Assembly (NCBI RefSeq): GCF_015775515.1
Contig: NZ_CP065383.1
Location: 1,736,001 to 1,800,000, forward strand
Source of the DNA: Atribacter laminatus
Lineage (GTDB): Bacteria; Atribacterota; Atribacteria; Atribacterales; Atribacteraceae
DNA: 64,000 nt
Direction: 5' to 3'
Program-made: the position numbers and the translations under genes
In this document: positions 40,551-50,050 of the stretch, one piece after another
Numbering within the stretch: position 1 is the stretch's first letter
How the letters are laid out: the number at the start of each line of letters is the position of its first letter
Notes under the pieces: model-generated
The model's input: the letters and a program-made list of their open reading frames with translations, nothing else
Told to the model about the DNA's origin: nothing
Database searches by the model: none

Positions 40551-41606
40551 TTATTCCAGCCCCAAGAAATCAAAAGGTTCGGTTTCGACAAACAATTGAG
40601 CGGTATCTCCAGCATAGAAATGTTCCGGAGAGATAACCAGCTTCCGAACCGGTGCCGAAGGTGAGAAATCGATCTTATCCAGTTGAACCCAGAAAATATT
40701 GGGAGTCAAAGTAGATTCAAAGTAATATACCTTGTTTTTTTGGTCGGCGACTGTTCTCCATAGAGTTGAAGAAATGTTTGGTTTATCAGGGGTACTGATA
40801 CCAAAAGGTACCGACACATTCCGAATCACGCTAAATACCGAAGCTACTGCTACCTGAATGTCGGCGGTTTTGGGAATGGCATTGATATAGAACCAAGCCC
40901 GGGCAAATCGATCGGCAGCTCGACTGGTACCAGGGAGCACAACCATCCCGCCAATTTCCTTCCAATACTCATTCAGAGCGAGCTGCTGCTGATATGTCGG
41001 AGAATTGGTCATGACCAGATACGAAGAATCATGGTGAATAACCAATTTACCGTCAACATATTCAAAGATAGCACTATCACCTAAAGAATCGGAAACGGCC
41101 AAGTGAACGGTCGCTAATTTATCAAGACCTGGCATGTCGGCGGTAACTAGAATAAATTCTTCTCTGGACAAAGCTTCCACGGTTTCCTCAACTGTAGCAA
41201 AAGAATCTAATACGTATTGAGCCCATGCTGCTAAGCATAAACCCGGTTTTTGACCATCCCACTCAGGGTATACCGATTCGGCTAACCACAGCACGTTGGC
41301 TACTAAGCCTTCCTCATTCATACCATCGGTAGTGGAGATATCGTATCCAGTTGCAATAACACTCCCATACTTAGAAGTCCATTTAAAAGAATTGGGTCCC
41401 ACTCTTCCTTCTTGTTCCATTTCTCTTGGGAAGATCCAGAGATTGGTTCCAATGTCTTCTGTCCAATCCATAGTCCGGCCGGTGATTACCGTTCCTTCCA
41501 GTCCATGGTAGAGCACTCTGCTGCAGGCATTGGCTGAGGGATTGGCTAATAATAAAATCATTAAAAAGAATATTACTAACAATAACAACCGATTTTTACT
41601 TTTCAT
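40551..41606 (-). CDS. Secreted linear-amide C-N hydrolase (choloylglycine hydrolase family)
   Basis: Ntn-hydrolase of the penicillin V acylase/bile-salt hydrolase family, 351 residues. The signal peptide runs to ANA, with Cys28 right after the predicted cleavage site, so export would itself expose the N-terminal nucleophile (CSRVLY). Further family residues are Arg/Asp in VITGRTMDW, the Asn in VMTNSPTY and Arg in AADRFARA. It should cleave amide bonds outside the cytoplasm; substrates may include N-acyl amino acids or N-acyl homoserine lactones, which sequence alone cannot decide. The rest of the gap to the right (41607-42019) holds repeat fragments. Confidence 0.9.
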   Translation of the reverse strand: MKSKNRLLLLVIFFLMILLLANPSANACSRVLYHGLEGTVITGRTMDWTEDIGTNLWIFPREMEQEGRVGPNSFKWTSKYGSVIATGYDISTTDGMNEEGLVANVLWLAESVYPEWDGQKPGLCLAAWAQYVLDSFATVEETVEALSREEFILVTADMPGLDKLATVHLAVSDSLGDSAIFEYVDGKLVIHHDSSYLVMTNSPTYQQQLALNEYWKEIGGMVVLPGTSRAADRFARAWFYINAIPKTADIQVAVASVFSVIRNVSVPFGISTPDKPNISSTLWRTVADQKNKVYYFESTLTPNIFWVQLDKIDFSPSAPVRKLVISPEHFYAGDTAQLFVETEPFDFLGLE

Positions 41607-45463: not shown

Positions 45464-45656
45464 AAAAAAAAGACCACGGACTCTAACGAACCTTTTTGCC
45501 TTCATCTCACTGGGAAGGTTATTGTTATAAGCTTCCTCAGTGTTTCAGGATCAGACTTCCATTTTTCCTCTCGGAAAAACTTCGAACCTTTTTCCTTGCG
45601 GTTAAAAGTTCTTTGTTCTAATCCTCCGGTCTTAGAGTTCCTCAGAATCCGTGGTA
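45464..45656 (-). ncRNA. Free-standing structured RNA, family not recognised
   Basis: About 193 nt on the minus strand, ending in eight U. The 5' and 3' ends pair (CCACGGA 45648-45654 with UCCGUGG 45474-45480), then CUCUAA/UUAGAG after a 10-nt 5' bulge. Arm A is closed by AGGAUUAGA/UCUGAUCCU (45617-45625 / 45547-45555) and carries two hairpins with GNRA loops: CC-GCAA-GG and UUUUUCC-GAGA-GGAAAAA (45562-45579). Arm B is CACUGAGGAAG/CUUCCCAGUG (45508-45542). A TTGACA box lies upstream. No protein fits either strand. 6S RNA should be tested first by size and setting, but the forked arm does not match it well. Confidence 0.7.
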
Positions 45657-45662
45657 GTTATT

Positions 45663-45691
45663 ATATTAAATGATGCATCCTCTTTTGTCAA
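45663..45691 (-). promoter_or_regulatory. Promoter of the structured RNA
   Basis: Minus strand: TTGACA (45686-45691), 17-base spacer, TAATAT (45663-45668); a perfect TATAAT also overlaps at 45660-45665 but with a 20-base spacer. Either would start the transcript at the first paired bases of the closing stem. Confidence 0.65.
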
Positions 45692-46005
45692 ATTTTAGTA
45701 GTATGATGAAATGGTAATCGTTGAGCGATTTAAAAATTGGAGGGTGGGAATTTTACTCCTAATAAAAGGGAAATTGAAAACAGAATTATTTTTAGGAAAT
45801 TTGGGAAATTTCTCTTTTCTTTTTTTTAAAATGAGAACAATGATCTAGATTAAAAGCGTTATCTGGTTTGACCTATCCAACATTTGAAAGAACAGCGACA
45901 TGGACTACATTTTTATCTGTATATTTAAGAATCAATTCTTTGGTAATCTGGTTATTCAAAGGCAATGAAAAAGAAGAAAGACATAATCACCAGGAGGAGG
46001 AAATC

Positions 46006-49516: not shown

Positions 49517-50050
49517 TTACGCTTTGCTGATCTTTAATGCTTCAAGATAGAATTGAACTGTTTCCTGTTCAAAACACACAAAACGGACCAAAAGTGGATA
49601 TTTTTCAAGAAACTTCTTGACTTCTCTTACAGCTATTCCAGCAGCTCGCTTTTTGGGAAAACCATAGACTCCGGTTGAGATAGCTGGAAAAGAAATACTT
49701 TGAATAGAATGCTCTTTGGCTATTTTAAGACTGTTTTTGTAACACGAAGCGAGGAGCTCATCTTCCTGGGCATTACCACCTCTCCAAACCGGGCCTACGG
49801 TATGAATGATATATTTCGCTATCAATTGATATCCCTTGGTGATCTTTGCCTCTCCCGGTGGACATCCTCCCAGAGTGCGACATTCTTCCTTAAGCTTAGG
49901 TCCGGCTTTCCGGTGAATAGCTCCGTCCACTCCGCCTCCTCCCAAGAGGGTAGAATTAGCAGCATTGACAATCGCATCGGTTTCTTCTTCGGTAATATCA
50001 CCCAAAACGATTTGAATATTTCCCTCAGAGTAAAGGGCGTTGAGAGACAT
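49517..50050 (-). CDS. Macrodomain protein, O-acetyl-ADP-ribose deacetylase type
   Basis: 177 residues matching the YmdB/MacroD class: [35 protein letters not shown], the phosphate loop [12 protein letters not shown] and [13 protein letters not shown]. Members remove ADP-ribose from acidic residues or deacetylate O-acetyl-ADP-ribose. The catalytic Asp/Asn pair is present. ATG 50050 is preceded by AAAGGAGGCC. It seems to be a single-gene unit with its own promoter. Confidence 0.94.

Follow-up and report, generated by a model that had tools for sequence, protein, structure and literature searches.

The minus strand of the window, by which we mean the whole analysed stretch of 64,000 nucleotides from the genome of Atribacter laminatus (contig NZ_CP065383.1, positions 1,736,001 to 1,800,000), harbors a promoter-like pair of boxes, a 181-nt sequence with a predicted branched fold and a run of U directly after its closing stem (Table 1). 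A preliminary description had presented this spot as a free-standing structured RNA with its own promoter and terminator and of no recognised family, and all the parts that it named are indeed present. The end helix CCACGGA/UCCGUGG, however, is only the tip of an 18-position helix (P1) consisting of 17 pairs and one G-G mismatch. No ORF of 60 aa or more overlaps the element, and the only match to an Rfam family at gathering thresholds in the window is one distant tRNA.

Table 1. Positions of the features discussed in the text (window positions unless the genome contig is named).
Feature	Position	Strand	Remarks
-35 box	45686..45691	-	TTGACA
-10 box	45663..45668	-	TAATAT; spacing 17; likely start of transcription about 45657-45655
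RNA	45474..45654	-	181 nt; model positions 1-183
P1, 5' strand	45637..45654	-	17 pairs plus G14 of the G-G mismatch
P1, 3' strand	45474..45491	-	
P2, 5' strand	45628..45629	-	CC; partner GG at 45499-45500
P3, 5' strand	45617..45625	-	AGGAUUAGA
P3, 3' strand	45547..45555	-	UCUGAUCCU
Hairpin P3a	45584..45611	-	GNRA loop (GCAA)
Hairpin P3b	45562..45579	-	GNRA loop (GAGA); missing in one relative
Arm P4	45508..45542	-	CACUGAGGAAG/CUUCCCAGUG; variable terminal loop
U-run	45464..45473	-	UC plus eight U; with P1, the probable terminator
Loosely conserved upstream stretch	about 45744-45715		resembles AAATCGCTYAACCAWTACC
ORF, macro-domain-like	49517-50050	-	judged from its translation only
ORF, resembles choloylglycine-hydrolase-type enzymes	40551-41606	-	signal peptide; judged from its translation only
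6S RNA gene	2858079-2858235 (genome contig)	-	49.8 bits to RF00013
85-nt family member	908352-908436 (genome contig)		handle and short body only; no clear promoter

The predicted fold is far from chance: the minimum free energy of the sequence is -67.8 kcal/mol against -39.1 +/- 3.7 for dinucleotide shuffles (z = -7.85). Moreover, the element is not single-copy, a fact that the preliminary description could not have known. A DNA search of the genome (one contig, 3,101,225 bases) found seven matches and relatives gave more. A covariance model built from 19 members, which scores the window RNA at 193 bits, found ten copies in this genome and members in 25 of 50 genomes of the phylum Atribacterota: every one of the 25 in the same order and none of the 25 in other orders. 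A broader covariance model was then searched over 386 genomes and gave the same 25 and none of the 361 others, although strict filters were used and only about six candidates were scored per genome, so that weak matches could be missed. A 58-nt model of the ends only, joined across an artificial loop, could not bridge the body: it found only the 85-nt copy in this genome and nothing in the 386 genomes, true carriers included, and this empty result is uninformative. The one contig hit outside Atribacteria-labelled and unnamed records, from Bacteroidetes, has only the 19-base 3' motif without a 5' partner and is a chance match. The order probably corresponds to the OP9 class, with JS1 lacking the RNA, and the genome is probably that of strain RT761, the largest Atribacterota genome at 3.1 Mb (PMC11227167); both names are inferences. 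None of 4,227 Rfam families is matched by the window RNA or by divergent members, with only chance matches far below the cut-off, and we found no paper on such an RNA in Atribacter or Atribacterota, as judged by titles and abstracts.

The data on covariation strongly support the fold. In 19 close members 92.4% of cells are paired and 26 of 54 pairs show double changes, while controls with slid partners reach only 32-57%. In 40 diverse members 94.5% of cells are paired against 35-56% when partners are slid, 49 of 54 pairs show double changes, and the covariation score is 0.455 against 0.21 for shuffles and 0.09-0.13 for slid versions. In P3, 6 of 9 pairs show double changes in close members and 9 of 9 in diverse members; P2 never varies among close members but covaries among diverse ones, and 9 of 9 modelled pairs of P4 covary. 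The alignment of diverse members was fitted to the model and leans towards it. However, the counts for P1 do not depend on fitting, because its arms align without gaps: 99.3% of cells are paired, 11 of 17 pairs have double changes and slid controls reach 32-55%. Position 14 is a G-G mismatch in 39 of 40 arms, flanked by a nearly fixed G-U and A-U on one side. Additionally, G-U makes up 121 of 624 P1 pairs, and the broader model scores 172 bits on the minus strand against 16 on the plus strand, so selection acts on RNA and not on a DNA inverted repeat.

A feature of the family is that a constant handle carries a variable body. The ends stay close to CCACGGGUUCYGAGRAAU...GGUUYGUURGAACCCGUGG followed by U, whereas the middle differs greatly in sequence and size, with classes of about 85, 127-132, 148-163 and 178-192 nt in total length. 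Divergent members of 128, 132, 144 and 148 nt still fold as P1, P2 and a three-way junction with z between -6.5 and -7.4, while the 85-nt copy is weaker (z = -2.3) and may be a remnant. In the core class the junction strands are conserved and purine-rich (GAAG, UGGAAG, GAA(A/G), AGAUGAA), P3a and P3b are capped by GNRA loops in 20 and 16 of 41 members, and the P4 loop varies from 3 to 25 nt among paralogues.

The members appear to be transcription units of their own. TTGAC stands at a fixed distance in about 40 of 47 members, at unrelated loci, and in most members the -10 box ends 7-9 nt before the RNA. A sigma-70-type promoter at this distance scores at least 9 of 12 in 41 of 47 members, against 2.9% of shuffled upstream sequences. 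A U-run follows most members except the first unit of a tandem pair. Such pairs were found in genomes of two genera (loci L132-L135, L137 and L139 in our numbering, in the genomes labelled G023, G017, G010, G020 and G013), where two members stand head to tail, 6-9 nt apart, with one promoter before the first and one U-run after the second; in L137 the first unit is cut by a contig end. This would be a two-RNA transcript that needs processing between the P1 helices. Therefore, the P1-closed unit is a module in its own right and not just a terminator.

The copies lie between unrelated genes. No gene is shared by their neighbourhoods, and the few gene families that recur near several copies do not do so at a fixed place. 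Several loci are nevertheless syntenic between species, for example the ~128-nt class beside a CpXC-domain protein and a family A DNA polymerase gene. The window copy and a second copy of this genome are identical over 181/181 nt of RNA, although the spacer at -60..-41 has drifted to 10/20 and the downstream flank is unrelated, which suggests strong selection or gene conversion restricted to the promoter-RNA unit. The loosely conserved stretch upstream lies about 60-90 nt before the RNA in several paralogues of the genus and could be a site for a shared regulator, or just the extent of duplication.

We compared the RNA with known systems one by one. 6S RNA is of similar length, has closed ends and is a stand-alone gene, but the locus does not match RF00013, the RNA of the window is a branched three-way junction with ten copies, and 6S is excluded because the 6S gene of this genome lies elsewhere. 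Y RNAs and YrlA seem to share the general plan of both ends sealed in one conserved helix, which serves as a protein handle, with a body that varies between paralogues. However, no Ro60 (TROVE) gene was found in any of 50 genomes of the phylum, whereas one control genome was found, there is no Rfam match, and P1 carries a G-G mismatch motif of its own; thus this is not a Ro60-bound Y RNA. Orphan RNAs such as Dictyoglomi-1 (RF01703), Acido-1 and raiA are likewise stand-alone structured RNAs known only from a thinly sampled lineage (PMC2864571 for Dictyoglomi-1 and Acido-1). None of them matches by covariance model, and the expansion of paralogues on a constant handle is an added feature. CsrB-type decoys of CsrA resemble the RNA in their GGA triplets. 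CsrA was found in 14 of the 25 genomes of the order, but in none of the 6 genomes of this genus, where the RNA is most numerous, and in none of 25 other genomes of the phylum.

Our data imply that the window harbors one paralogue of a new family of stand-alone structured RNAs, detected only in the order of this genome. It could be that the RNA is made from the sigma-70-type promoter, folds with both ends sealed in P1, and is bound at P1 and the P1/P2 purine loop by a protein common to the order. The variable body (P3/P3a/P3b and the P4 loop) would then contact different partners or targets, so that the trans-acting paralogues would be functional variants on one handle. We consider this reading about as likely as not: expression, partner and function are inferred from sequence, the handle-binding protein is inferred only from conservation, and the conserved junctions could equally reflect a purely RNA tertiary fold. 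A more far-reaching version, for which the support is only tentative, is a lineage-specific ribonucleoprotein system in which an order-wide protein reads the G-G-marked handle and up to ten paralogous RNAs present different bodies on it, possibly tied to a trait peculiar to these bacteria, for example their nucleoid-surrounding membrane or microcompartments. It would be a class of RNA machine with no counterpart elsewhere.

Among other explanations, one would argue that the paralogues are antisense small RNAs, each pairing with different mRNAs through exposed loops, chiefly the variable P4 loop, while P1 gives stability and termination. The multiple copies, the own promoters and the variable P4 loop agree with this notion. 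However, conservation is concentrated in the handle and the purine junctions, the frequent GNRA loops of P3a and P3b are structural loops rather than seeds, both ends are locked in P1, and no Hfq was found in any of 50 genomes of the phylum, whereas 5 control genomes were found. An antisense role remains possible but is not likely. An intrinsic activity (a ribozyme, a ligand-binding or a self-assembling structural RNA), in which GNRA loops and A-rich junctions make a tertiary fold, is more doubtful still. The conserved purine junctions, the GNRA loops of the core class and the compact closed fold speak for it, but the body is so variable that no common active site is seen, only the handle is constant, and no cleavage site is evident.

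It is quite unlikely that the family is a small non-autonomous mobile or selfish element spreading a promoter-RNA-terminator cassette. The dispersed near-identical copies with unrelated flanks and the inverted-repeat-like ends would suit such an element, but the G-U content of P1 (19% of pairs) and the strand preference suggest that P1 is not a DNA terminal repeat, several loci are held in conserved synteny, no gene family is common to the neighbourhoods and hence there is no shared transposase, and no match was found in phage or plasmid records by blastn or in viral contigs by exact motif. A cis-acting leader (riboswitch or attenuator) is suggested only by the terminator-like P1 and U-run and is very improbable, since the nearest downstream gene is on the opposite strand in 24 of 42 places and is unrelated between copies, and tandem units share one terminator. 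Finally, the side possibility of CsrA binding, raised in the preliminary description from several GGA triplets, is not supported, as no CsrA was found in this complete genome or its genus and the loops of the window RNA are GCAA, GAGA and an AU-rich P4 loop rather than GGA.

An RNA family kept in every examined genome of an order, expanded to ten copies in one genome and unknown to Rfam is a good sign of an undiscovered core RNA function, and the RNA is probably a working part of these cells. Atribacter laminatus is a cultured member of a phylum noted for an intracytoplasmic membrane around its nucleoid (PMC7736352), so expression, partner and location of the RNA can be tested directly. The design of a constant handle and a variable body, with its G-G mismatch, gives a precise bait for finding a new RNA-binding protein.
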